A stretch of 37,688 bases of DNA, from NCBI GenBank assembly GCA_021324075.1, contig JAJPJW010000107.1, positions 1-37,688 of the forward strand. Direction: 5' to 3'. Positions 2 to 24,225 of this stretch are shown here, piece by piece (position 1 is the first letter of the stretch; each line of letters begins with the position of its first letter). The position numbers and the translations under genes were made by a program. The stretch is from Pseudomonadota bacterium (GTDB lineage Bacteria > Oederibacteriota > Muellerivitia > Muellerivitales > Muellerivitaceae). The notes under the pieces are model-generated. The model did no database searches. It was not told the DNA's origin and was given only the letters and a program-made list of their open reading frames with translations.

Positions 2-1432
2 CGGACACCCACCGCCACCAATACGCCGACCAACACCCCCACCAATACCCGCACCCTGACCCCCACTTCCACGGCCAGCTTCACCCCCACGGCCACCGCT
101 ACATTCACCGCTACCTTGACTCCCACGTCCACGCCGCCGGCGAATGTCACCATCCACAAGTCCGTCAACCCCACCAGCGTGCAGTCGGGCAACTCGCTGG
201 TTTACACCATCGAGGTGGACGTGACGGGCAATTCGATGAACGGCGCGGTAGTGACGGACATCCTGCCGGCCAATGTGACCTTCGTTTCATTTGGCACCAG
301 CCCCGCGGGGACGGCCACCAATTACACCCAGTCCCTCTCCCAATTGACCTGGACCCTGCCCCCGTCGCTGGCCCCCGGAGCCTACTTCCTGACCTACCAA
401 ACCCAGGTGAACAACTTCCTGGCGGGGGGAACGAGCATCATCAACAACGCCCAGCTGACCTTCACGGGCGGCGGGCCGCTGTCGACCAGCGCCGCGGCCA
501 CCGTGATCGGGGAATTCACGGTGAAGATCAACGTTTACAACGAGTCCGGCGAGGTGGTGAAGCAGATCTACGTCCAGCAGATGTCGCAGCCGTTGAACAA
601 CTTCTCGATCCAGTCCACACCCGTCATCACCAGCCTGCACGGGGCGAACGACGCGGTGACGGTGGTTTTCCAGGGGGTTCCGATCGCCGTCTGGGACGGC
701 TCGACCAATACAGGCGACCCCGCCACCAACGGCGCTTATTACATCAAGGTGGACAATATCGACAGCACGGGCGCCATCACCAGCACGACCCAGCAGGTGA
801 CGGTCAGCCGGTCGCTGGCTAAATCGACCATCCTTATCTACAACGAGGCAGGGGAGGAAGTGAAAAACCTGGTCACTTACTTCGACGACCCCGGGCAGGC
901 CCTCTCGGTTTCGAGCGTCCAGTTGTCCAATCCAGTAATCGCTCCCGGCTCCTCGGGTGGGTCCATCCCCAGCGTATTGACCATCACCTTGAACGCGGGC
1001 ACGTCCGTGGTTTGGGACGGGACGGGCAACAATGGGGCCTATGTCCAAAGCGGCCAATATTTCCTGGAAATCCACACCAACAACGGGAACGGCAGCCAAA
1101 CCACCGTCATCAAGCAGTTATCCGTGGACGGGCATTTGACCCAGTCGGGGCTGGGCGAGACCTGGGCTTTGCCCAACAAGGTCGGCCGCGGCTCGGGCCC
1201 GGTCACCTTCTATAACAACTCCTCCACCAACCTCACCCTGACGGTCAACTTTTACACCGTCGCCGGTGAATTAATCGCCCCGCCCATCACCGGGGACAAC
1301 GGAACCCACCCACCGACCGTCGGCGTCGGCCACCTGGCCAGCGGCCTTTACCTGGCGGTGGTGGAACTGCGCAACGCCACCAACGGCGGGCTTCTGGGAC
1401 GCCGGATCCTTAAGATCACCGTCATCCATTAG
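2..1432 (+). CDS. Secreted Thr-Pro-rich / DUF11 / FlgD-like repeat protein (3' part, 5'-truncated by window)
   Basis: The reading frame is open from the first bases of the window, so the N-terminus is missing; the in-frame TTG at 116 is not a credible start. About 40 residues of Thr-Pro-rich linker come first. A DUF11-type Ig-like repeat follows (starting VTIHKSVNPTSVQSG, with VVTDILPANVTF). Two FlgD-Ig-like units come next, each with a 'VYNESGEVVK / IYNEAGEEVK' strand and a 'VWDG..NGAY' turn. The C-terminal module is similar (FYTVAGELI ... SGLYLAVVEL) and ends in RRILKITVIH. Such proteins are normally exported and sit on the cell surface or are released. The last module has the general shape of C-terminal export or anchoring domains, but I see no diagnostic sorting signal. 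Function beyond a structural or adhesive role cannot be assigned. The stop is TAG at 1430. Confidence 0.8.
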   Translation, partial: RTPTATNTPTNTPTNTRTLTPTSTASFTPTATATFTATLTPTSTPPANVTIHKSVNPTSVQSGNSLVYTIEVDVTGNSMNGAVVTDILPANVTFVSFGTSPAGTATNYTQSLSQLTWTLPPSLAPGAYFLTYQTQVNNFLAGGTSIINNAQLTFTGGGPLSTSAAATVIGEFTVKINVYNESGEVVKQIYVQQMSQPLNNFSIQSTPVITSLHGANDAVTVVFQGVPIAVWDGSTNTGDPATNGAYYIKVDNIDSTGAITSTTQQVTVSRSLAKSTILIYNEAGEEVKNLVTYFDDPGQALSVSSVQLSNPVIAPGSSGGSIPSVLTITLNAGTSVVWDGTGNNGAYVQSGQYFLEIHTNNGNGSQTTVIKQLSVDGHLTQSGLGETWALPNKVGRGSGPVTFYNNSSTNLTLTVNFYTVAGELIAPPITGDNGTHPPTVGVGHLASGLYLAVVELRNATNGGLLGRRILKITVIH

Positions 1433-2727: not shown

Positions 2728-3459
2728 ATGCCCCGGAAAAAGAAAGCCGAAACCGTTTCAACCGCTCCGAAGGCCGCCTCCAAATCCAAATCCGCCGCCA
2801 AACCGAAAACCGCTTCCAAGCCTGTCCGAGCCGCCGCCAAAAAGCCGGCCGCTCCCAAGGCCCCCCGCGCCGCAAAGTTTCCCCCCAAAGCCGCCTCCAA
2901 GGCCCCTGTTTCGGCCTGGAAAAAACCGGCCCGCCAGGGAGAGACCCAAATGGTGGCCTTTATCCGGGACCCCCACTGCATTTTCACTTATTGGGAGGTG
3001 ACCCCCCAAAGCGTCGAGGCCGTGAAGCAGCAGTTGATGGGCGAATACAAGGACAGCGCCATGGTACTGCGGGTTTTCCGAACGGGCCCGGACGGGCAGG
3101 CGGAACTGATCCAGGAAATCCGGGTGGAGCCGGGGGAAATGAACCGCTACGTCGAGTTGAAGGAAGGCGCCTCGGGCAGTTACTTCATCGAAATCGCCCA
3201 AAAGGCCGCCTCGGGCCGCATGGTCGTCTACGCCCGCTCCAACAAAGTCATGACCGGGACCTTCGCCGGCGGCGGAAACGGCGCCCCGGCTTCCTCCTCC
3301 CCCCAATGGGAAACCCCCGCGGGGCTTTTGGAATATTTCAATGAAGTGGAGGAAACCTCCGACTCCCTGGCCCTCCGGGGCCTTTCCTCCGCCGAAGCCC
3401 ACCGGAAAGGCCTGCTTCGCCGGCAGATGGGCCGCTATTCCGCCTCCCACATCGGTTGA
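2728..3459 (+). CDS. DUF4912 domain protein with Lys/Ala-rich N-terminal tail
   Basis: 243 aa. The first ~70 residues are low-complexity Lys/Ala/Pro (repeats of KAASK, KPAA type). A DUF4912 domain follows, recognised by 'FIRDPHCIFTYWEVTP' and the later 'GSYFIEIAQ' strand. DUF4912 proteins are frequently encoded next to GH57 (DUF1957) glucan-branching enzymes, and that is the case here: the stop is 45 bases before the GH57 start. The molecular role is not known. A glucan-binding or regulatory partner of the branching enzyme is a reasonable guess from context only. The start is ATG 2728, with GGGAGG at 2717-2722; an upstream in-frame start at 2662 would add 22 residues with no ribosome site. 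The basic tail resembles the tail of the DksA-like protein at 36646-37113, a composition shared by several proteins of this genome. Confidence 0.8.
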   Translation: MPRKKKAETVSTAPKAASKSKSAAKPKTASKPVRAAAKKPAAPKAPRAAKFPPKAASKAPVSAWKKPARQGETQMVAFIRDPHCIFTYWEVTPQSVEAVKQQLMGEYKDSAMVLRVFRTGPDGQAELIQEIRVEPGEMNRYVELKEGASGSYFIEIAQKAASGRMVVYARSNKVMTGTFAGGGNGAPASSSPQWETPAGLLEYFNEVEETSDSLALRGLSSAEAHRKGLLRRQMGRYSASHIG

Positions 3460-3504
3460 CGGCTTAAGCCTCCGCGTTCAACGCCCTTAACCAAGAAGGA
3501 ACCT

Positions 3505-5118
3505 TTGCCCGACCCCTCCAACCCCACTCCGACCGGAAAGATTTCCCTGGTCCTCCACTGCCACCTCCCTTTCGTCCGTCATCCCGAGCACGATCACTTT
3601 TTGGAAGAGAACTGGTATTACGAGGCCCTTTTCGAGACCTACCTGCCCCTCCTTTCCGCCTTTGAAGAATTGTCGCGCCGGCAGATCCCTTTCCGGATGA
3701 CCCTGTCGGTTTCCCCGACATTCCTTTCCATGTGCCTGGACCCCCTACTCCAAAGAAGGGCGGTCCGTTACGCGGATGAACTGCTCGGCCTGGCACGCAA
3801 GGAAGAAAAAAGGATCCAGTCCCATCCCGAATTCAAGCCGGTCCTTGCGATGTACCTGGAAAAACTGGAACGCTACCGCCGGGACTTGCTGGGAAAGTAC
3901 CATGGCAACGTGGCCGAAGGATTCAAGGCCTACCAGGCCTCAGGCCAGCTGGAACTCATTACCTGCGCGGCCACGCACGGCTTCCTGCCGCTTTTGGCTT
4001 TAAGGGAAGCGGCGGTGCGGGGACAGGTGGAGACCGCCCTCCGGTCGCACCGGGCTTTCTTCGGCAAAGAACCGGCGGGTTTCTGGCTTCCCGAATGCGG
4101 CTACCAGCCGGGATTGGACGGCCTTTTGGCCCATTACGGCCTCCGGTATTTTTTCGTCGAAAGCAACGGCCTGCTGGAGGCACAGCCCCGTCCCCGGTAC
4201 GGCACCTTCGCCCCCGTGCGATGCCCTTCGGGACTTTCGGCCTTCGGAAGGGACCTGGAAAGCTCCAAACAGGTCTGGAGTTCCAAGGAAGGCTATCCGG
4301 GAGACCCCGATTACCGCGAGTTTTACCGCGACGCGGGGTTCGACCTGACGGAAGGGGAATTGCACCCTTATCTGCAGCCTGAGGGCATTCGACGGTTCAC
4401 AGGGCTCAAGTACTATCGAGTGACCGGGCCGGGCAACCAGAAGGAACCCTATGACCCCCAGCGGGCCCGGCGAAAGGCCGAGGCCCATGCCGCCGACTTC
4501 CTGGCCAACCGCCGTAAGCAGGCGGGGACCGTTTCCCAGTGGATGGACCGCCCCCCCTTAATGACCTGCATGTACGATGCCGAGCTTTTCGGCCACTGGT
4601 GGTACGAAGGGCCCGATTTCCTCCAGTCGCTTTTTGAGCAGAACCACCGGCAGGGAGGAGGACTTTCCTTCACCACGCCATCGGCCTACCTGGAGGAATT
4701 CCCCGAAAACCAGCCCAGCCAGCCCGTTTTTTCCTCTTGGGGGCTGGGGGGCTACGCGGAGTTCTGGCTGAACGAAACCAACGACTGGCTTTATCCCCCC
4801 TTAAGCGGCGCTTGCGACGAAATGAGTTACCTGGCGGACCAATACGAGTGGGAAAAGGGCGCCTCCCAAAGGGCCATTTGCCAGGCCGCCCGGGAACTGC
4901 TTTTGGCGCAGGCCAGCGATTGGGCCTTCATGCTCAAGACCGGCAACCACAAGGCCTACGCCGAAAGGCGGTTCAAGACCCACCTGGCCCGGTTCCACAA
5001 GCTTTCCCAGCAGGTCCGTCGGCACAAGGTCGATGAAATTTTCCTTTCCGACTTGGAGGAAAAAGACAATCTTTTCCCCGGGATCGACCCGGGGGCCTAT
5101 AAAAGCCCTTCCAAATAA
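3505..5118 (+). CDS. Glycoside hydrolase family 57 (DUF1957) 1,4-alpha-glucan branching enzyme
   Basis: 537 aa, the normal length for GH57 branching enzymes. The N-terminal motif LHCHLPFVRHPEH supplies the family's active-site His residues (H18, H20). The predicted catalytic nucleophile is E197 in WLPECGY and the acid/base is D358 in YDAELFGHWW; both match the GH57 branching-enzyme signatures. The C-terminal third carries the DUF1957-type helical region with 'SSWGLGGYAEFWLNETNDW'. Expected reaction: transfer of an alpha-1,4-glucan segment to form alpha-1,6 branches in glycogen, in the cytoplasm. The start is TTG 3505 with AAGGA at 3496-3500; there is no in-frame ATG nearby. The gene follows the DUF4912 gene closely and precedes a ROK sugar kinase, consistent with a glycogen or maltodextrin operon. 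The key residues are all present, so it should be active. Confidence 0.9.
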   Translation: MPDPSNPTPTGKISLVLHCHLPFVRHPEHDHFLEENWYYEALFETYLPLLSAFEELSRRQIPFRMTLSVSPTFLSMCLDPLLQRRAVRYADELLGLARKEEKRIQSHPEFKPVLAMYLEKLERYRRDLLGKYHGNVAEGFKAYQASGQLELITCAATHGFLPLLALREAAVRGQVETALRSHRAFFGKEPAGFWLPECGYQPGLDGLLAHYGLRYFFVESNGLLEAQPRPRYGTFAPVRCPSGLSAFGRDLESSKQVWSSKEGYPGDPDYREFYRDAGFDLTEGELHPYLQPEGIRRFTGLKYYRVTGPGNQKEPYDPQRARRKAEAHAADFLANRRKQAGTVSQWMDRPPLMTCMYDAELFGHWWYEGPDFLQSLFEQNHRQGGGLSFTTPSAYLEEFPENQPSQPVFSSWGLGGYAEFWLNETNDWLYPPLSGACDEMSYLADQYEWEKGASQRAICQAARELLLAQASDWAFMLKTGNHKAYAERRFKTHLARFHKLSQQVRRHKVDEIFLSDLEEKDNLFPGIDPGAYKSPSK

Positions 5119-5247
5119 GCGGAAATCCCGCCCCTTTTTCCTGAATTTTTTTGCCTAAAGCACAGTCCCCCATTACAATAACGCCGCCCTGGGCCCCTTT
5201 GGGGCGGCCCTGGCCGCAGAGGCATTCCCATCAACAAGGAGAGGGTT

Positions 5248-6183
5248 TTGAAAACAGTCATCGGCGTGGATCTGGGCGGCACCAACATCGTGTCCGCCGT
5301 GGTGGACGAAAAGGGGAAAGTCCTGGGCAAGGACAAGCGCAAGACCCTGTCGTCCAAGGGGGCGAAAGGGGTCCTGGACCGCATCGTCGAAAGCATCCAT
5401 GCTGCCAGCCACAATAGCGGCCAACCCTGGGCCTCCCATCTGGCTGTGGGCATCGGGTCGCCGGGCCCGCTGGACCCCTTCAAGGGCGTGGTCATCTACA
5501 CCCCCAACCTGGGCTGGAAGAACGTGCCCATCGTGGCCATCCTGAAAAAGAAACTGGGCAAGAAGGTTTTCCTCGAGAACGACGCCAACCTGGCCGCCTT
5601 GGGTGAAAGCTGGATCGGGGCGGGAAAGGGCGAAAAAGTCGTCCTTTGCGTCACCCTGGGAACGGGTGTGGGCGGCGGCCTGATCGTGGACGGCAAGATC
5701 TTCCAGGGCGCTACCGGCGTGAGCAACCATATCGGCCATATCGTGGTGGACCCCAAGGGCCCCCCGGCGCCCTATGGCAACAGCGGCATCCTGGAACAAT
5801 ACGTCTCGGCAACGGGCATCGTGCGCCTAGCCAAACTGGCGGGCCTGAAGCCCCCGGCGGGAGCGCCCCTGGAGGCCCACAGCTTCCAATTGATGGCCGA
5901 GGCGGGCAACCGGAAGGCCTTGAAGGTCTATGAAGAGGCGGGCCGCATGCTGGGGGTGGGATTGACCACCTCCCTCCACCTTTTGAACCCCAGCGTGGTT
6001 ATTTTCAGCGGGGGCGTGGCCGGGGCAGGGGATTTACTGCTCAAGCCCATGATGAAGGAACTTCAAAAACGCAGTTTCAAATCCCATTTGAAGGGCTTGA
6101 AGTTCCGGATGGCCAAACTGGGGGACAACATGGGGGCGGTGGGCGCGGCGCGCCTGGCCTGGCAGTCCCTCAAAAAGGCCTGA
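5248..6183 (+). CDS. ROK-family sugar kinase (glucokinase-like) lacking the ROK zinc motif
   Basis: 311 aa. The phosphate-binding loop DLGGT (residues 8-12), the catalytic Asp in LENDAN (D112) and the second loop LGTGVGGGLIVDG (137-149) are intact. These identify an ASKHA-fold ROK kinase, most likely phosphorylating glucose with ATP or polyphosphate. The usual CxCGxxGCxE zinc-binding motif is replaced by PAPYGNSGILEQ (about 173-184); all three Cys are missing although the preceding His (H161/H164) remain. Several glucokinase branches, including polyphosphate glucokinases, also lack this motif, so this need not mean inactivity. The start is TTG 5248 with AAGGAGAGG just upstream. The context (GH57 branching enzyme, LacI regulator) fits feeding glucose from glucan breakdown into glycolysis. 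Confidence 0.88.
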   Translation: MKTVIGVDLGGTNIVSAVVDEKGKVLGKDKRKTLSSKGAKGVLDRIVESIHAASHNSGQPWASHLAVGIGSPGPLDPFKGVVIYTPNLGWKNVPIVAILKKKLGKKVFLENDANLAALGESWIGAGKGEKVVLCVTLGTGVGGGLIVDGKIFQGATGVSNHIGHIVVDPKGPPAPYGNSGILEQYVSATGIVRLAKLAGLKPPAGAPLEAHSFQLMAEAGNRKALKVYEEAGRMLGVGLTTSLHLLNPSVVIFSGGVAGAGDLLLKPMMKELQKRSFKSHLKGLKFRMAKLGDNMGAVGAARLAWQSLKKA

Positions 6184-6232
6184 AAAGCCCCCAAAAACAA
6201 GCCTCCCAGCCTTATTTTTCAGATAAAAAAAG

Positions 6233-6261
6233 TTGCACTCCCCAGGGTGTGTGCTTAGAAT
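6233..6261 (+). promoter_or_regulatory. Sigma70-like promoter for the 72-aa secreted protein
   Basis: TTGCAC (6233-6238), a 17-base spacer and TAGAAT (6256-6261). The expected start of transcription is near 6268, giving a structured leader of about 87 bases. Confidence 0.7.
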
Positions 6262-6270
6262 ACCGGCTTT

Positions 6271-6302
6271 CAACGGCCTGGCACTTGGGTGTCGGGCCGT
6301 TG
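6271..6302 (+). other. Leader hairpin in the 5' UTR
   Basis: CAACGGCC (6271-6278) pairs perfectly with GGCCGTTG (6295-6302). An inner GGCAC/GTGTC stem (one G-U) extends it. It lies just after the predicted transcription start and could stabilise the mRNA or control translation. Confidence 0.55.
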
Positions 6303-6312
6303 TTGTGTAGCG

Positions 6313-6334
6313 AAATAGTGGTCGACCACTATTT
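6313..6334. promoter_or_regulatory. 22-bp perfect palindrome before the ribosome site
   Basis: The half-site AAATAGTGGTC is followed directly by its reverse complement. It lies between the leader hairpin and the Shine-Dalgarno sequence TAAGGAGG (6341-6348). It may be a dimeric repressor operator or, in RNA, a tight hairpin next to the ribosome site. No other copy was noticed in the window. Confidence 0.55.
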
Positions 6335-6354
6335 TTACTTTAAGGAGGCTTTTA

Positions 6355-6573
6355 ATGAAGCGTTTTATCGTTGCTTTGATGGCCGTGATGTTCTTGGGCG
6401 CCACTGGCGTGGTTTTGGCGGATGAAGCTGCTGCCCCCGCTTCCACCCCGGCTGCTGCTCCTGCCAAGATGGAAAAGAAGTCCAAGAAGATGAAGAAGTC
6501 CAAGAAGGCCAAGAAGGCTGCTGCTGATGCCGCCGCTCCGGCCGCTGCCGCTGCTCCGGCTTCCGCCAAGTAA
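6355..6573 (+). CDS. Small secreted Lys/Ala-rich protein
   Basis: 72 aa. Residues 1-22 form a clear signal peptide (MKRFIVALMAVMFLGATGVVLA, given here as a range with its hydrophobic core at 4-21), with likely cleavage after LA before DEAAA. The mature ~50 residues are almost only Ala, Pro and Lys: an Ala/Pro block, a central Lys cluster (KKSKKMKKSKKAKK) and a second Ala/Pro block. There is no enzymatic motif. A strong Shine-Dalgarno (TAAGGAGG), a near-consensus promoter, two downstream hairpins and a terminator indicate a monocistronic, probably highly expressed gene. The cationic exported peptide could bind polyanions or envelope polymers; this is a guess from composition. No family is recognised. 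Confidence 0.8.
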   Translation: MKRFIVALMAVMFLGATGVVLADEAAAPASTPAAAPAKMEKKSKKMKKSKKAKKAAADAAAPAAAAAPASAK

Positions 6574-18179: not shown

Positions 18180-18781
18180 TATTTGGTTTTCTTGGCGATG
18201 AGGAAGACCGCGATGCGGAAAAGGCCGAGGAGGCTCAGGAGCTTCCGGATCAGGTTCGTCAACCCGCCCTGGGGGATGTTGTAGAGGCTGGGGATAAAGA
18301 ACATGATGGGTTCGTCCGTTTCCAACAGCTGGACGGCGAAATCCTTGAAGAGCTCGGCGAAGCTGGCCTTGCTGTGGGGTCTCAGGTGCGTGGGGTCGTC
18401 CCAGAAGTTGGTGCCGATGGGAAGCAGGGTGCAGACCCAATTGGGGGCTTCGGCGAAGAAGAGGCCGCCTTTTTTCAGCACCCGGCCCATTTCGCGGACG
18501 GCCCCGTGGGGGCTGGGAAGGTGCTCGATCAGGTGGAAGCAGAGCACGGCGTCGAAGCTTTCGTTCTTGAACTTCAGCCGGTTCACGTCCCCCGAAACGA
18601 AGGCGGTTTCCCCGGGGACTTCCTTTTTATAAGAGGGATCGATGTCCAGGCAGGTGATCTGCAGGTCCGGACGCAGGAAAAGGGCGTAGCGGGAATTATG
18701 GCCCGTCCCACAGCCGGCGTCGAGGACCTTGGCCTTGGGCGGGAGGGAACGGAGGTGTTGTTCAAACTGGGCCCTGTTCAT
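18179..18781 (-). CDS. Class I SAM-dependent methyltransferase
   Basis: 200 aa. SAM-binding motif I is VLDAGCGTGHNSRY (residues ~19-32). An acidic motif follows (CLDIDPSYKK), then 'SFDAVLCFHLIEHLPSP' and 'VLKKGGLFFAEAPN', a Methyltransf_11 type seen in many polysaccharide clusters. The substrate is unknown. It is the first gene of the minus-strand envelope cluster and is divergent from the SRPBCC-GyrI gene; the 171-base gap should contain both promoters. There is no clear Shine-Dalgarno before ATG 18781. The C-terminus is hydrophobic and basic, possibly membrane-associated. Confidence 0.88.
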   Translation of the reverse strand: MNRAQFEQHLRSLPPKAKVLDAGCGTGHNSRYALFLRPDLQITCLDIDPSYKKEVPGETAFVSGDVNRLKFKNESFDAVLCFHLIEHLPSPHGAVREMGRVLKKGGLFFAEAPNWVCTLLPIGTNFWDDPTHLRPHSKASFAELFKDFAVQLLETDEPIMFFIPSLYNIPQGGLTNLIRKLLSLLGLFRIAVFLIAKKTK

Positions 18782-18952
18782 AGCGCCTGTGAGGATAGCA
18801 AAAAGAGGGGCTTTCTTCAGCCTTTTGATCGCTGGGGAAAGGCTTCGGAATCCAAGGGTAAACGCCGAAATTGTAAATTGTTCGCAGGGCGTTTGAATTG
18901 GGGCCCCGCCCTTTGCCAGAATGAGCCCTTACCACAACCGGGGAGGCGCGTC

Positions 18953-19987
18953 ATGGCGAAGACGAAACTGAAATCGCGGGTGAAGACCAATGGGAAGAAG
19001 ACGGCGGGTGAAAAGAAGGCGGCGGCCAAGCCCGCCCCGGATTTTACCTACTATATCCACATCGGCGCCGGCCCGGAGAAGGTCTGGGAAGCCCTGACGG
19101 ACAACCAGTTCATCCCCCTCTACTTTTTCGGGCATACCATCAAGGCCGATTGGAAATTGGGGGCCGAATTGCGATTCCACCGCCCCGACGGGTCCCCGGC
19201 CGATTACGGCAAGATCACCCGTTTCGAGCCGTCCAAGGTTTTGGCCTATACCTTCCAAATGCCGGGGGACAAGACGAAGCGCGCCAAGCCCACGGAAGTG
19301 GCCTTCGAGATCCTTCCCATGCTGGGCGGCGTGAAGCTGATGCTGACCCACACGAATTTGACGAATCTGGACACCGAGAAGAACCCCTTCACCCTGCGGG
19401 GCCTTAACAACGGCTGGCCCGCCATCGTTTCGAACCTCAAGAGCGTCCTGGAGACGGGCAAGAGCATCCTGGACATGTCCCAAATGGGCATGGACGGCAA
19501 CCTCCGGCTTCCCAAAAAGGACGGGGGCCATATGAGCCTGACCACCGAACCCCAGGAGGTGAAATGGCCGGCCACCCACTATGTCTTCGTCGAAAAGGTG
19601 GGGCCTTTCATGGAAACGGCCAAGGAGGCCTGGAACGCCCTGCATCCGGCCGTTCCCAAGATCGTGGAGAACAGCAAGATCACGGGTTATATGGCCCTCT
19701 ACAAGTTCAAGCCCGAAACCTACCGCGCCGGGGTGGCCGTGGCTTCCAAGCCCAAACACCTGCCCGAAGGCTTCTCTTACGAACTTTTCAAGGGCGGCAA
19801 CTACGCCAAATGGGTGCTGACCGGGCCCTATACGGACCTGCCCGAGGCCTGCGGCTACGTTTTCGACAAGTTCCTGCCGGAAAAGAAGATCCGGATGCGC
19901 AAGGGTTGGTGCATCGAGAACTACACCAACGACCCCCGGATAACGCCGGAAAAAGACCTGGTTACTGAGATATTAATTCCAGTCTAA
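18953..19987 (+). CDS. SRPBCC (AHSA1-like) domain fused to a GyrI-like effector-binding domain
   Basis: 344 aa. A Lys-rich N-terminal tail (1-27) comes first. An SRPBCC/AHSA1 (Activator of Hsp90 ATPase-like, CalC) domain from ~30 to 175 follows, with 'IGAGPEKVWEALTDNQFIP' and 'GWPAIVSNLKSVLETG'. A GyrI-like / AraC effector-binding domain from ~203 to the end contains 'THYVFVEKVGPFMETAKEAW' and 'GGNYAKWVLTGPYTDLPEA'. Both domains form hydrophobic small-molecule pockets. SRPBCC proteins commonly accompany DGPF proteins and ECF sigma factors, as here. ATG 18953 is chosen because GGGAGG lies at 18941-18946; the longer ORF from 18374 is antisense to the methyltransferase. A role in binding or sensing a small toxic compound is inferred. 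There is no DNA-binding domain. Confidence 0.85.
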   Translation: MAKTKLKSRVKTNGKKTAGEKKAAAKPAPDFTYYIHIGAGPEKVWEALTDNQFIPLYFFGHTIKADWKLGAELRFHRPDGSPADYGKITRFEPSKVLAYTFQMPGDKTKRAKPTEVAFEILPMLGGVKLMLTHTNLTNLDTEKNPFTLRGLNNGWPAIVSNLKSVLETGKSILDMSQMGMDGNLRLPKKDGGHMSLTTEPQEVKWPATHYVFVEKVGPFMETAKEAWNALHPAVPKIVENSKITGYMALYKFKPETYRAGVAVASKPKHLPEGFSYELFKGGNYAKWVLTGPYTDLPEACGYVFDKFLPEKKIRMRKGWCIENYTNDPRITPEKDLVTEILIPV

Positions 19988-20031: not shown

Positions 20032-20059
20032 ATCCCCCGAAGCTTTAGCCTAGGGGGAT
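20032..20059 (+). other. Hairpin just upstream of the DGPF promoter
   Basis: ATCCCCC (20032-20038) pairs with GGGGGAT (20053-20059). It ends at the first base of the putative -35 element and is about 50 bases after the SRPBCC gene stop. There is no T-tract, so it is not a classical terminator. Confidence 0.4.
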
Positions 20060-20085
20060 GTCCGGGTTTGGCTTTGGCCTTCGTC
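20059..20085 (+). promoter_or_regulatory. Putative ECF-type promoter of the DGPF genes
   Basis: TGTCCG (20059-20064), 17 bases, then CGTC (20082-20085). The same pattern and spacing occur at 22923-22949 before the carboxymuconolactone-decarboxylase gene. The CGTC element ends 58 bases before the DGPF ATG. A leader hairpin, GAAGGC/GCCTTC (20095-20116), follows. ECF promoters typically combine a conserved -35 with a CGTC-like -10. Confidence 0.6.
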
Positions 20086-20143
20086 GTATGGTATGAAGGC
20101 TGCTGAACGGGCCTTCCATTATCAGGTTTAAAGGAGACGAGCC

Positions 20144-20503
20144 ATGGCTGATTTCGTATATCTGTTCTGGAACCAAAGGGAAGACGCGCAAAAGATGGCG
20201 CAGGCCACCGTCGAACAAAAAACAGCGATCACCCAACGCTGGAAGAACTGGTTGGAAGAGCTGGCCAAGAAAGGGCACGTGAAGGACGTGGGCGCGCCAC
20301 TGGAATTCACCGGCAACACGCTCCATGGCCCCAAAAAGCAGGTGACCGACGGCCCCCACCCGGAAGCCAAGGACGTCATCGGCGGGTTCAGCCTGATCAA
20401 GGCAAAGGACCTGGCCGAGGCCACCGAACTGGCCAAGGGCTGCCCCATCCTGGAACTGGGCGGCCGTTGCGAAGTGCGGCCCATCCGCCCCCTGGCGATG
20501 TGA
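20144..20503 (+). CDS. DGPF/YCII-domain protein 1
   Basis: 119 aa, the full length of a DGPF (PhnB/YCII-related) protein. It starts MADFVYLFWN, has a helix-rich middle (QRWKNWLEELAKKGHVKD) and the family motif VTDGPHPEAKDVIGGF, and ends EVRPIRPLAM. In this copy DGPF is DGPH. Family members are small dimeric alpha+beta-barrel-like proteins; their chemical role is not established, but they are the hallmark partners of ECF42 sigma factors. It is the first of three tandem paralogues (56- and 52-base gaps) upstream of an ECF42-like sigma gene, and it carries the putative ECF promoter. Confidence 0.9.
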   Translation: MADFVYLFWNQREDAQKMAQATVEQKTAITQRWKNWLEELAKKGHVKDVGAPLEFTGNTLHGPKKQVTDGPHPEAKDVIGGFSLIKAKDLAEATELAKGCPILELGGRCEVRPIRPLAM

Positions 20504-20559
20504 GCAAGCCTTTTTAACTTTAGGTTGCGCACCCTCTTTATCAATCAAGGAGAAACGAA

Positions 20560-20916
20560 ATGCCCGACTTCATGTATCTGCACAGGGGACAAGGCGGCCC
20601 GCCGCCCAAGGCGCAGCCCTCGCCGGAAGAGATGAAGCAAATGATGCAAAAGTTCATGGTTTGGATGGAAGCCATGAAAAAGGGCGGCCATCTCAAGGAC
20701 CCCGGAGCCCAGTTGGAGAGGAAGGGCAAGTTGGTCCATGGGGGGAATAAGGGGGTGACGGATGGCCCCTTCACCGAAGCCAAGGATGTGGTAGGGGGTT
20801 ACATGATCCTCACCGCCAAGGATATGGATGAGGCGGTGAGTCTTTTGAAGGACGCCCCTTTCCTGGGACCCGATGGATTGATCGAGGTCCGGCCCATCCG
20901 GCCCATGTCCATGTGA
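20560..20916 (+). CDS. DGPF/YCII-domain protein 2
   Basis: 118 aa. MPDFMYLHRG start, Met-rich helix (KQMMQKFMVWMEAMKKGGH), canonical motif VTDGPFTEAKDVVGGY, EVRPIRPMSM end. It is the copy with the intact DGPF signature. GGAGA precedes the start by about six bases (AAGGAGAAACGAA). No separate promoter was seen, so it is expected to be co-transcribed with the first copy. The divergence between copies is large (roughly half the residues differ), so they are old paralogues, perhaps with different ligands. Confidence 0.9.
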   Translation: MPDFMYLHRGQGGPPPKAQPSPEEMKQMMQKFMVWMEAMKKGGHLKDPGAQLERKGKLVHGGNKGVTDGPFTEAKDVVGGYMILTAKDMDEAVSLLKDAPFLGPDGLIEVRPIRPMSM

Positions 20917-20968
20917 TCCAAGCCGATAAACTTTTTTATTCACCGACCCAAAAACAAGGAGAAGCAAA

Positions 20969-21313
20969 ATGGCGAATTTTCTATACCTTTTCTGGAACAA
21001 ACAAGCAGGCTGGGCGCCCCAATCCCCCGAGGATATGGAGAGGCGCATGAAGAAGTGGATGGCCTGGATGGACAGCCTCAAGGCCTCCGGCCACTTCAAC
21101 GGTGCCGGCGAACGCCTGGAGGGTACGGGCAAGCTGGTCAAGGGCGCGGCCAAGGCCGTCACCGACGGGCCCTATGCCGAGGCCAAGGACAGCATCGGCG
21201 GCTATATCGTGGTGCAGGCCAAGGACATCCAGGAAGCCGTCGAGCTTTCCAAGGGCTGCCCGGTCCTGGAAGGGGACGGCATGGTCGAAGTGAGGCCCAT
21301 CGCGGCGATGTAG
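20969..21313 (+). CDS. DGPF/YCII-domain protein 3
   Basis: 114 aa. MANFLYLFWN start, WMAWMDSLKASGHFNGAG helix, VTDGPYAEAKDSIGGY motif, EVRPIAAM end. It shares its N-terminus with copy 1 and its centre with copy 2. AAGGAGAAG lies before the ATG. It is the last gene before a C/G-rich repeat and the sigma factor gene. The three copies in a row suggest homo- or hetero-oligomers or a set of related ligands; this is inference. Confidence 0.9.
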   Translation: MANFLYLFWNKQAGWAPQSPEDMERRMKKWMAWMDSLKASGHFNGAGERLEGTGKLVKGAAKAVTDGPYAEAKDSIGGYIVVQAKDIQEAVELSKGCPVLEGDGMVEVRPIAAM

Positions 21314-21350
21314 GACCCGCTAAGGATGGGAATAGGCACATGGTGCTTAT

Positions 21351-21436
21351 TCCCCCTCTGAAAGAGGGGGATGGAGGGGGAGTTAGCCTTGCTCCCAAAG
21401 CTAATACCCCCCTACCCCCCTTTTTCAAATGGGGGA
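21351..21436. repeat. Intergenic C/G-rich inverted repeat, copy 2
   Basis: CCCCCTCTGAAAGAGGGGG, then GGAGGGGGAGTTAGCC, ~20 bases, GCTAATACCCCCC and CCTTTTTCAAATGGGGG. It matches the reverse complement of 13450-13547, with the middle shortened. It lies between the third DGPF gene and the sigma factor gene, and may be transcribed as a double hairpin. Confidence 0.85.
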
Positions 21437-21483
21437 TATTCAAACTGAGCCACTACCGCAAATTGAAGTAAAGTAAACATCCT

Positions 21484-22743
21484 ATGACCCAAGAACTACC
21501 CCAGGTGATCGACCATCTTTTCCGGCGCGAGTCGGGGAAGATGGTCTCCTATTTAACGAGGATCTTTGGCCTGGGCCGCCTCAACATGGCCGAGGACGTG
21601 GTGCAGGACACCCTGATCAAGGCCATGGAAACCTGGCCCCTGCGCGGCCTGCCCGACAACCCCTCGGCCTGGCTCATGCGCGCCGCCCGCAACCGGGCCA
21701 TCGACCTCATCCGCCGCGACACCCATTTCAAGTTCGTCACGCCGGAGCTGACCCACCTTTTAAGGCTGCGCGAGGAGGAAGGGGAGGAGGGGCCCGTGCC
21801 CGCCAAGGAAATCCAGGACGACCAGCTGCGCATGATGTTTTCCTGCTGCCACCCGGAGCTTTCCCCCGACGCCCAGGTGACCCTCATCCTCAAGACCCTC
21901 TGCGGCTTCAGCGTTTCCGAGATCGCCCACGCTTTTTTCACCCAGGAAGACGCCGTGGAGAAAAAACTGGGCCGGGCCCGGAAGACCCTGAGGGAATCGG
22001 GCAGTTTTGTGGAACTGACGAACAACCTCGACATTCCCCAAAGGCTGGAGGCGGTTTACCAGACCCTCTACCTGCTCTTCAACGAAGGCTACCACGGCAG
22101 CCGGTCGGACCGGAAGGAACCGGAAGAGCTTTGTTACGAAGCCATGCGGTTGACCCTGCTCCTGGGCCAGCATTCCGAGGGCCAGAGGCCCAAGACCTTC
22201 GCCCTCCTGGCCCTCATGTGCCTGCACGCCGCCCGCCTGCCGGGGCGGCTGGCGGACGACGGCACCCTGATCCAACTGGAGTTCCAGGACCGTTCCAAAT
22301 GGGACCAGGCCCTTATCGGCAAGGGACTGGAATACCTGGAAAAAGCCTGGGCCGGGCAGCTGGTCAGCGAGTACCTGGTGGAAGCCAGCATCGCGGGCCT
22401 CCATTGCAGTGCCAAGACCTATGAGGAGACCGAGTGGGGGAAGATCCTGGAACTCTATAACCTGCTTTACCACCTCAAGCCCACGCCCGTGGTGGCCCTG
22501 AACCGCGCCATCGCCCTGGGCAAGGCCCGGGGTTTCGAGAAGGGTTTGGAAGCCTTGAAGGCCATTCCGGGGGCCGAAAAGCTCAAGGAATATCCCTTCT
22601 ATTCGGCGGCCCTGGGGGAATTCCACCTCTTGGCGGGCCAGCCCCAGGAGGCAAGGGCTCATTTTGCCGAGGCCGTGAAGCAGTCCAGGAACGAACCGGA
22701 AAAGGTCTTCTTCGAGCGCAAACTCAAATCCTGCCAGGATTAA
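21484..22743 (+). CDS. ECF42-type RNA polymerase sigma factor with long C-terminal extension
   Basis: 419 aa, far longer than a plain ECF sigma factor. Region 2 (~7-75) includes 'MAEDVVQDTLIKAMETWPLR' and 'SAWLMRAARNRAIDLIRRD'. Region 4 (~115-165) includes 'QVTLILKTLCGFSVSEIAHA' and 'VEKKLGRARKTL'. The remaining ~250 residues form the DUF6596/TPR-like helical domain ('LYLLFNEGYHGSRSD', 'VVALNRAIALGKARG') typical of group ECF42. ECF42 genes are nearly always linked to DGPF genes, and three lie immediately upstream; ECF42 has no classical anti-sigma factor and the extension is thought to control activity. The start is ATG 21484 with only a weak ribosome site. It probably directs the two TGTCCG-N17-CGTC promoters described here. 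Confidence 0.93.
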   Translation: MTQELPQVIDHLFRRESGKMVSYLTRIFGLGRLNMAEDVVQDTLIKAMETWPLRGLPDNPSAWLMRAARNRAIDLIRRDTHFKFVTPELTHLLRLREEEGEEGPVPAKEIQDDQLRMMFSCCHPELSPDAQVTLILKTLCGFSVSEIAHAFFTQEDAVEKKLGRARKTLRESGSFVELTNNLDIPQRLEAVYQTLYLLFNEGYHGSRSDRKEPEELCYEAMRLTLLLGQHSEGQRPKTFALLALMCLHAARLPGRLADDGTLIQLEFQDRSKWDQALIGKGLEYLEKAWAGQLVSEYLVEASIAGLHCSAKTYEETEWGKILELYNLLYHLKPTPVVALNRAIALGKARGFEKGLEALKAIPGAEKLKEYPFYSAALGEFHLLAGQPQEARAHFAEAVKQSRNEPEKVFFERKLKSCQD

Positions 22744-22763
22744 GCCGATCCAAGCAACGGCAA

Positions 22764-22893
22764 TTTGGCCACAGATGCAAGGGATACATGGGATGGATAA
22801 GCCCAAGCCTCAAACAAACCGTTGGGGAAAAAGACGAAAAAATTAGGACTCTTTTTGAGTATCTGTGTTCATCCCATGCATCTGTGGCCAAAT
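22764..22893. repeat. Intergenic inverted repeat (CCACAGATGCA family)
   Basis: TTTGGCCACAGATGCAAGGG at the left faces CCCATGCATCTGTGGCCAAA at the right, around ~90 bases. It is related to the inner element at 17003-17125 and more loosely to 8905-9000. It separates the sigma gene from the promoter at 22923. Confidence 0.8.
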
Positions 22894-22922
22894 AGTTGTT
22901 GTCGTTTCCGATGTTTTTCCCC

Positions 22923-22949
22923 TGTCCGGATTTCTTCTCATTGTGCGTC
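22923..22949 (+). promoter_or_regulatory. Putative ECF-type promoter of the carboxymuconolactone-decarboxylase gene
   Basis: TGTCCG (22923-22928), 17 bases, then CGTC (22946-22949). The consensus with 20059-20085 extends to TGTCCGG and CGTCRTAT. CGTC ends 55 bases before the ATG, close to the spacing at the first DGPF gene. Confidence 0.6.
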
Positions 22950-22961
22950 ATATTATTAGAA

Positions 22962-22978
22962 GGGCCCTTTAAGGGCCC
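22962..22978 (+). other. Leader palindrome after the putative ECF promoter
   Basis: GGGCCCTT and AAGGGCCC flank a single T, forming a very GC-rich near-perfect palindrome just after the expected transcription start and 20 bases before GGAGG. It may be an mRNA hairpin or an operator. Confidence 0.5.
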
Positions 22979-23004: not shown

Positions 23005-23583
23005 ATGGAAACATTAGTCAAAGACGAGCCGTTTTTGGCCCCCATCGAGGAGCCGACGGACCCGCAGATGAAGCAAACCTACGACTTTTTCCTGAAGACC
23101 TACGGCAAGGTCATCACACCCGTGAAGGTCTTCCAGGCCAGGATGCCGACGGCTTTCGGCCAATTCTCGGGGATGATCTCCCAGTTGGACCGGATGCTGG
23201 AGCTTCCCGCTGAAACCGTCCTGCTGGTGCGCGAACGGGTGGCCCAATTGAACATCTGTCTTTTCTGCATGGACATCGGCCGGGCAGGGGTCGTCCAAGC
23301 GTCGATGAACGAAGCCAAGTTCGACGCCCTGAATGACTACGCCGCCAGCCCGCTTTTCAACGAGGGCGAGAAGGCCGTTTTGGACTACGTCACGGACCTG
23401 ACCCGGGATAAGAAAGTAAACCCGGAGACCTTCGCGCGGATGCGGGAGCATTATTCGGAGCGCCAAATCTGCGAAATCGTCTATCTGGTGGCCAGCGAGC
23501 ACGTCTACAATATGACGAATATCGGCCTCAACATCCATTCGGACATGCTTTGCGACATTACGAAGAAGAAAAAGGCGGACTAA
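23005..23583 (+). CDS. Carboxymuconolactone-decarboxylase-family (AhpD-like) protein
   Basis: 192 aa. The CMD/AhpD core is 'VRERVAQLNICLFCMDIGRAG', with a redox CxxC (C85, C88) in the position used by AhpD-type peroxidase partners. 'EKAVLDYVTDLTRDKKVNPE' and 'IVYLVASEHVYNMTNIGLN' give the second helical half. It is predicted to be a cytoplasmic thiol redox enzyme acting on peroxides or quinone-like compounds. The start is ATG 23005 with GGAGG seven bases upstream. It is the first gene of an apparent operon with the FMN reductase 27 bases downstream and carries a promoter of the same type as the DGPF genes. The usual His/Glu proton-relay residues cannot be confirmed without an alignment. Confidence 0.88.
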   Translation: METLVKDEPFLAPIEEPTDPQMKQTYDFFLKTYGKVITPVKVFQARMPTAFGQFSGMISQLDRMLELPAETVLLVRERVAQLNICLFCMDIGRAGVVQASMNEAKFDALNDYAASPLFNEGEKAVLDYVTDLTRDKKVNPETFARMREHYSERQICEIVYLVASEHVYNMTNIGLNIHSDMLCDITKKKKAD

Positions 23584-23610: not shown

Positions 23611-24225
23611 ATGGTCAAGATCGAAGTGCTGGTGGGGAGCACCCGGCCGAACAGGTTCAGCGACAAGCCCGCGGTTTATCTTTGCGAGGAGTTGAAAAAG
23701 GAAGAGGGCGTGGAAGCCGAACTGGTGGACCTGAAGGACTGGGAGCTCCCCTTTTTCAACGAGCCGGTCTCTCCCATCGCCGCGAAGGGGGAATACAAGA
23801 ACCCCTTGGTGAAAAAATGGGCGGAAAAGATTTCCGAGGCCGACGGCTTCGTGATCGTCACGCCGGAATACAACCACGGCTATCCCGGGGTCCTCAAGAA
23901 CGCGTTGGACTGGATCTACTTCCCTTGGAACCAGAAGCCGGTGGGTTTTGTCAGCCACGGCGGGGCGGGCGGGTCGAGGGCGATCGAGCAGCTTCGGCAG
24001 GTCGCCATCGCCCTCCAAATGCACCCCATCCAAAGCGCGGTCAGCATCCCCCAGGAGATCGTCCGGGGCGTCATACAGAACAAAAATCCGGACCAGCCCC
24101 TTTCCGAAACCTTCCGGCCGCTCCGGGAGGGGCGGATGGACATGGTCGGGAGGTTCTTCACGGAATTGTTGAAGCTGGCGGTGGTCCTGAAGGCCGGTCG
24201 GAGTGAGCCGGCGTCCAAAGGTTAA
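23611..24225 (+). CDS. NAD(P)H-dependent FMN reductase
   Basis: 204 aa, flavodoxin-like fold. The FMN phosphate loop is GSTRPNRFSDK (residues 9-19). 'PEYNHGYPGVLKNALDWIY' is the family signature for flavin and nicotinamide contacts, and 'KPVGFVSHGGAGGSRA' is the third motif. It would reduce FMN, quinones, azo or nitro compounds with NAD(P)H in the cytoplasm. It follows the CMD-like gene by 27 bases on the same strand, with AAAGGA-like bases before ATG 23611. Together they look like a redox detoxification pair. The substrate is not deducible. Confidence 0.92.
   Translation: MVKIEVLVGSTRPNRFSDKPAVYLCEELKKEEGVEAELVDLKDWELPFFNEPVSPIAAKGEYKNPLVKKWAEKISEADGFVIVTPEYNHGYPGVLKNALDWIYFPWNQKPVGFVSHGGAGGSRAIEQLRQVAIALQMHPIQSAVSIPQEIVRGVIQNKNPDQPLSETFRPLREGRMDMVGRFFTELLKLAVVLKAGRSEPASKG

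Follow-up and report, generated by a model that had tools for sequence, protein, structure and literature searches.

Candidate promoters with a TGTCCGG -35 element flank an ECF42-type sigma factor gene and suggest a CMD/AhpD-like protein as a target

Introduction

Are two matching sequence patterns that lie on either side of a sigma factor gene promoters read by that same sigma factor, and which genes would they serve? The question arises from contig JAJPJW010000107.1 of the bacterial assembly GCA_021324075.1, of which the whole stretch analyzed here (the window) comprises 37,688 nt. Within it a gene encoding an extracytoplasmic function (ECF) sigma factor of the ECF42 type lies between three YCII/DGPF genes and a pair of genes that encode a CMD/AhpD-superfamily protein and an FMN reductase. 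The pattern TGTCCG-N17-CGTC precedes both gene groups. ECF42 sigma factors are widespread, but little is understood of the signal to which they respond or of their role in physiology; the targets described for them are DGPF proteins, whose function is unknown. The ECF42 promoter consensus of Streptomyces venezuelae has TGTCGA as the -35 element and CGA/TC as the -10 element. An earlier note, made from the window alone, had read the two patterns as promoters of the linked ECF42 sigma factor and had taken the CMD/FMN-reductase pair as a target. From sequence comparison we put the probability that the linked sigma factor recognizes both sites as promoters at about 0.88.

Results

Two sites of identical pattern and spacing flank the sigma factor gene

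The window holds exactly two copies of TGTCCG-N17-CGTC, at 20059-20085 and 22923-22949, as the earlier note had reported; both are on the + strand. Shuffled versions of the window held a mean of 0.10 matches and none of 100 shuffles reached two. The CGTC of the first site ends 58 nt before the ATG at 20144 and that of the second ends 55 nt before the ATG at 23005, in agreement with the distances first given. The site at 20059, which extends to CGTCGTATG, is the predicted ECF42-type promoter 1 (-35 TGTCCGG, -10 CGTC) and stands before the YCII/DGPF genes and probably serves the sigma factor gene too. The site at 22923, with the flanking letters CGTCATATT, has the same -35 and -10 elements and is the predicted promoter 2, placed before the CMD/AhpD-like gene.

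The gene between the two sites (21484-22743, + strand) does encode an ECF42-type sigma factor. Its product matched PF04542 and PF08281 above their cut-offs, giving an ECF-type sigma2 and sigma4 without sigma3, and carries a C-terminal extension with DUF6596 (PF20239, E 1.4e-32) plus a TPR_14 match below the cut-off of that model. Alignment and a tree placed the protein, whose sigma4 recognition helix reads QEDAVEKKLGRARK, in what we call the EK clade. Three PF03795 genes directly upstream are the expected ECF42 neighborhood, and the -10 element and spacing fit the ECF42 consensus, whereas the last two -35 bases differ (TGTCCG rather than TGTCGA). The features of ECF41 proteins, a SnoaL-type extension and a TGTCACA -35 element, are replaced here by DUF6596/TPR and TGTCCGG. 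No anti-sigma gene was recognized near the sigma factor gene.

Genome-wide distribution of the sites

The 3.57-Mb genome to which the window belongs (G000) was searched for TGTC-N19-CGTC, the surroundings of each match were inspected and open reading frames (ORFs) were scored by codon usage. Among the 42 matches, those lying 38-60 nt upstream of a well-supported start were the TGTCGA sites (four of five upstream of genes, 50-59 nt before the starts), the TGTCACA sites (two of two, 38-50 nt) and the TGTCCGG sites of the window (55-58 nt). With other -35 letters, 23 of 26 matches fell inside ORFs. For TGTCCG-N17-CGTC itself there were nine matches. Besides those of the window, three stood outside ORFs or at an ORF edge and four within ORFs; on its own, the 10-base pattern therefore lacks full specificity. 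A 14-base form, TGTCCGG-N16-CGTCGTA, was written from family sites, and at zero or one mismatch it found only the window sites, promoter 1 as the sole exact match and promoter 2, with one mismatch, as the second best site in the genome. Equal frequency of the pattern in coding sequence, which would have spoken against the earlier reading, is thus not seen for the extended motif. Allowing up to two mismatches to the 14-base form gave 16 matches versus 32 for the backwards control, and no broad regulon was found in this genome.

Outside the window, the site at position 7728 of contig C167 stands before an ABC transporter operon (start 155-215 nt away). In all three genomes that have a window-type ECF42 (G000 and its relatives G002 and G005) this operon is preceded by TGTCCGG-N16-CGTC, which is absent from the operon in G001 and G003, two family members that lack such a sigma factor. 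It is probably a third site of the window sigma factor and is the sole further site with comparative support; the regulon appears to be small. Two other candidates were discarded. The match at C25:11619 lies inside a palindrome, accompanied by a Fur-box-like sequence and by a gene start that is 129 nt downstream. The site at C53:37726 precedes a GNAT gene by 46 nt, but it shares bases with the end of a different ORF, and a leader hairpin is missing.

Conservation in relatives

Orthologues of the window sigma factor were sought in the eight nearest relatives, and close ones were found in two: G002, the congeneric FCPU426 genome of candidate division FCPU426 bacterium JOPF088 (82%), and G005, of the same family (77%). 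In G002, TGTCCGGGTTTTGGGAACCCCTTCGTCGTATGG stands before the YCII-sigma genes and TGTCCGGATTCCATCTTCTAGTCCGTCGTATGA before the CMD gene. Both promoter sites are therefore kept, while just 9-10 of the 16 spacer bases are like those of the window. In G005, TGTCCGG precedes a DoxX-like gene and TGTCGGG precedes the YCII gene.

A TGTCCGG clade of ECF42 sigma factors

A scan of a genome collection with the three orthologues (window, G002 and G005) gave 80 related ECF42 loci from Acidobacteria, Gemmatimonadetes, Eremiobacterota, Myxococcota, Bacteroidetes and others. When the spacer of TGTCCG-Nk-CGTC was varied from 8 to 26, there were 57 matches at k=17 and 0-11 at each other length. TGTCGA-N17-CG[TA]C matched only twice in the same 80 loci. 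The motif stands before YCII genes in about 40 of the 80 loci and also before glyoxalase-like, short-chain dehydrogenase/reductase (SDR), DoxX and RibD_C genes. TGTCC...CGTC precedes CMD/AhpD-like genes in locus L172 (FCPU426), in L179 and L180 (ANGP1) and in L175 (Acidobacteria); the CMD/AhpD-like gene of L213 (Dadabacteria) is preceded by TGTCCCG, and L239 (Bacteroidetes) has TGTCCAA at both its CMD and YCII sites. Judged by these upstream motifs, CMD/AhpD-like genes are a recurrent predicted target of the window-type ECF42 clade. Together with the spacing peak and the conservation in G002, these data support the reading of the window sites as promoters of the linked sigma factor, for the DGPF genes (motif kept at YCII in G002 and found before YCII genes in other phyla) and for the CMD gene alike. 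The FMN reductase half of the proposed target pair is a putative target by operon adjacency.

To compare helices with -35 elements, 50 more ECF42 loci were added. Where the sigma factor carried EK at window positions 159-160, the bases following TGTC were CG in 44 cases and never GA; where it carried AQ, they were GA in 26 and never CG. Sorted by residue 160, K/R went with CG (47 cases) and Q with GA (27 cases), with no exceptions. A tree from which the helix was left out shows a single change of the -35 state. Loci of the EK clade include some from Chitinophaga, Bradyrhizobium, Sorangium and Pyxidicoccus strains. The window sigma factor is accordingly assigned to a broad ECF42 clade with TGTCCGG as its predicted -35 element, the canonical clade using TGTCGA.

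Related sigma factors of the same genome

A second, canonical ECF42 locus occupies the reverse strand of contig C167 at 3158-6468. Here three YCII genes and a RibD_C gene come ahead of the ECF42 gene, and TGTCGA-N17-CGTC precedes them. Further TGTCGA sites stand before DUF4287 and DoxX genes on C167 and a YCII gene on C87. Like the window locus, this locus combines three YCII genes with an ECF42 gene, a 17-base spacer, a CGTC -10 element and a leader hairpin after the start. It differs in its -35 element, in its sigma4 helix (ATLAQRIVRAKK), in its sequence (about 36% identical) and in its candidate targets, which are DoxX, DUF4287 and another YCII gene. A SigJ-like ECF41 is encoded on C53 behind TGTCACA-N16-CGTC, and the genome's two such sites stand before the ECF41 gene and a DoxX_2 gene. 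By their sites, one genome has three related sigma factors with three -35 elements (TGTCCGG, TGTCGA and TGTCACA) and a common -10 element, and TGTCCGG goes with the window sigma factor.

Could the C167 paralogue read both window promoters, or the two paralogues cross-talk fully? They share their family, -10 element and 17-base spacing, but the paralogue's own locus and candidate targets have TGTCGA, and the complete partition of EK-type and AQ-type loci between CG and GA also speaks against it. We consider this quite unlikely.

Marginally less probable still is that the genome's ECF41 sigma factor reads the CMD promoter, whose likeness to the DGPF promoter would then stem only from a shared ECF signature. 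ECF41 sigma factors of Rhodobacter sphaeroides and Bacillus licheniformis do target CMD, oxidoreductase and epimerase genes through TGTCACA-n16-CGTC (PMC3426412), and the genome encodes such a protein. Moreover, in G006 (L157, 2076-3681), a family member without a window-type ECF42, the CMD orthologue (63% identical) is divergent from an ECF41 gene, with TGTCACA-N16-CGTC sites facing both genes. However, the 22923 site reads TGTCCGG, it is kept as TGTCCGG in G002, and elsewhere the same motif stands ahead of CMD genes that belong to ECF42 operons. Because the genome's ECF41-type sites read TGTCACA, we rejected control of the window CMD gene by ECF41. Since the same CMD gene adjoins ECF42 with TGTCCGG in G000 and G002, the comparison with G006 suggests that its regulator changed between ECF41 and ECF42, in either direction.

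That the two patterns match by chance has a negligible probability: of the nine 10-base genome matches four do lie within ORFs, but the shuffles, the rank of the window sites as the two best 14-base sites, their conservation in G002 and the spacing peak in the 80 loci all argue otherwise.

Predicted leader hairpins

A 5' leader hairpin is predicted just past the presumed start at promoter 1 (20095-20116, + strand; RNA fold -10.6 kcal/mol, z -1.4), with similar hairpins in G002 and G005 leaders. At promoter 2 the predicted hairpin GGGCCCTT/AAGGGCCC (22962-22978, + strand) folds with -14.3 kcal/mol (z -3.6), and its G002 counterpart, spelled differently, with -17.4 kcal/mol (z -4.5). In 10 of 10 ECF42-type leaders examined (both window sites, those of G002 and G005, and the G000 sites with TGTCGA), a predicted hairpin begins only a few bases from the presumed transcription start; it was absent at the three ECF41-type leaders examined and at the doubtful GNAT site. 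The effect was weaker in a wider set, with mean z -1.3 in leaders vs -0.3 upstream (29 leaders of at least 44 nt; 32 shorter ones were left unfolded).

Genes and repeats of the locus

The YCII/DGPF, sigma factor, CMD and FMN reductase genes are all on the + strand. The YCII/DGPF proteins are encoded at 20144-20503, 20560-20916 and 20969-21313 (PF03795, E 9e-15, 7e-16 and 6e-16, respectively). The gene at 23005-23583 was assigned to the CMD/AhpD superfamily from its resemblance to the CMD-family/AhpD-like PDB entries 2o4d and 7xw1 (E about 1e-8), from NF053654 (81.7 bits, under the model cut-off) and from an orthologue alignment in which all members have C-x-F-C and most have CLFC, the CxxC of the window protein. 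It had no Pfam match at 0.001, and its L179 relative scored 16 bits with PF02627, below cut-off. Two CMD-like relatives (L145 from G092 and L146 from G008) have one in-frame TGA within the match. This is possibly selenocysteine, as a related NCBIfam model is named (seleno)protein. An NADPH-dependent FMN reductase (23611-24225; PF03358, E 2.5e-42) follows 27 nt after the CMD gene, and from this adjacency is presumed to be cotranscribed.

Ending just before promoter 1 is an ORF (18374-19987) with an AHSA1 (SRPBCC) domain and a GyrI-like/Cass2 effector-binding domain; no exact TGTCCG-N17-CGTC lies upstream of it within the window. The stretch 21340-21460, which follows the third YCII gene and precedes the sigma factor gene, contains CCCCTCTGAAAGAGGGGG. 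The 18-mer is a dispersed repeat, because it is also present on contigs C53 and C98. A large inverted repeat that contains CCACAGATGCA/TGCATCTGTGG and has 31-nt arms that are 87% complementary occupies 22755-22901 between the sigma factor gene and promoter 2.

Discussion

We propose that RNA polymerase carrying the window sigma factor would read both flanking promoters. Transcription from promoter 1 would cover the three YCII/DGPF genes and probably read through into the sigma factor gene, which would imply positive autoregulation. Promoter 2 would drive the CMD/AhpD-like CxxC protein and, by adjacency, the FMN reductase. The EK-clade sigma4 helix would read TGTCCGG instead of TGTCGA with the same CGTC and the same 17-base spacing, and the distinct -35 element should separate this regulon from those of the canonical ECF42 paralogue and of ECF41 in the same cell. 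Activation may proceed through a signal acting on the C-terminal TPR/DUF6596 domain; in the ECF42 group this extension has about 200 residues and is needed for activity.

Several observations weigh against this proposal. CGTC is a -10 element common to several ECF groups, and several related loci lack the exact motif, among them L178 and L177, the latter with a CMD-type gene. The linkage to the FMN reductase is found in the window genome only; in G002 a pirin-like ORF comes next after the CMD gene. Read-through from the YCII genes to the sigma factor gene is uncertain because the 170-bp gap between them holds the dispersed repeat. Finally, the match of helix to -35 element is a single split on the tree, and so which residue matters stays hypothetical. 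The idea that K160 alone sets the -35 element was dropped, as the tree needs one change only.

The ECF42 proteins of S. venezuelae (Sven_0747, Sven_4377 and Sven_7131), Pseudomonas putida (ECF-10) and Sinorhizobium meliloti (RpoE10) share with the window sigma factor the DUF6596/TPR extension, a YCII/DGPF neighbor, the lack of a recognized anti-sigma gene nearby and a TGTC...CGTC promoter of the same spacing. The window -35 element, TGTCCGG, differs from the TGTCGA of S. venezuelae and from the TGTCGG of S. meliloti. Note that the RpoE10 sites, TGTCGG-N17-CGTC, also depart from the TGTCGA consensus (PMC6180224). With the ECF41 group the window system shares CxxC CMD targets, the CGTC -10 element and a fused C-terminal regulatory domain; unlike it, that group has a TGTCACA -35 element, a SnoaL-like C-terminal domain and no DGPF genes. 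A CMD/AhpD-like target of ECF42 is not reported in the literature compared, which did not include Liu 2018 and Casas-Pastor 2021, and the TGTCCGG clade may already have been described.

As a tentative generalization, to which we give somewhat less than even odds, ECF42 would comprise two large clades, each with a -35 code of its own (TGTCCGG or TGTCGA) determined by the sigma4 recognition helix (E159-K160 or A-Q). FCPU426 cells would operate both side by side, their DGPF regulons insulated from each other, and promoter change would have shifted the CMD/AhpD-like gene between ECF41 and ECF42 control. The TGTCCGG/TGTCGA split with its matching helix difference offers a specific hypothesis for the insulation of related sigma factors in one cell, and the ECF41/ECF42 contrast at an orthologous CMD gene illustrates in compact form how one regulator may have replaced another. 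For the ECF42 family, we infer a role in oxidative or electrophile stress from the kinds of target gene: the recurrent AhpD-like CxxC target and, following the same motif, genes of the DoxX, glyoxalase-like and SDR types.

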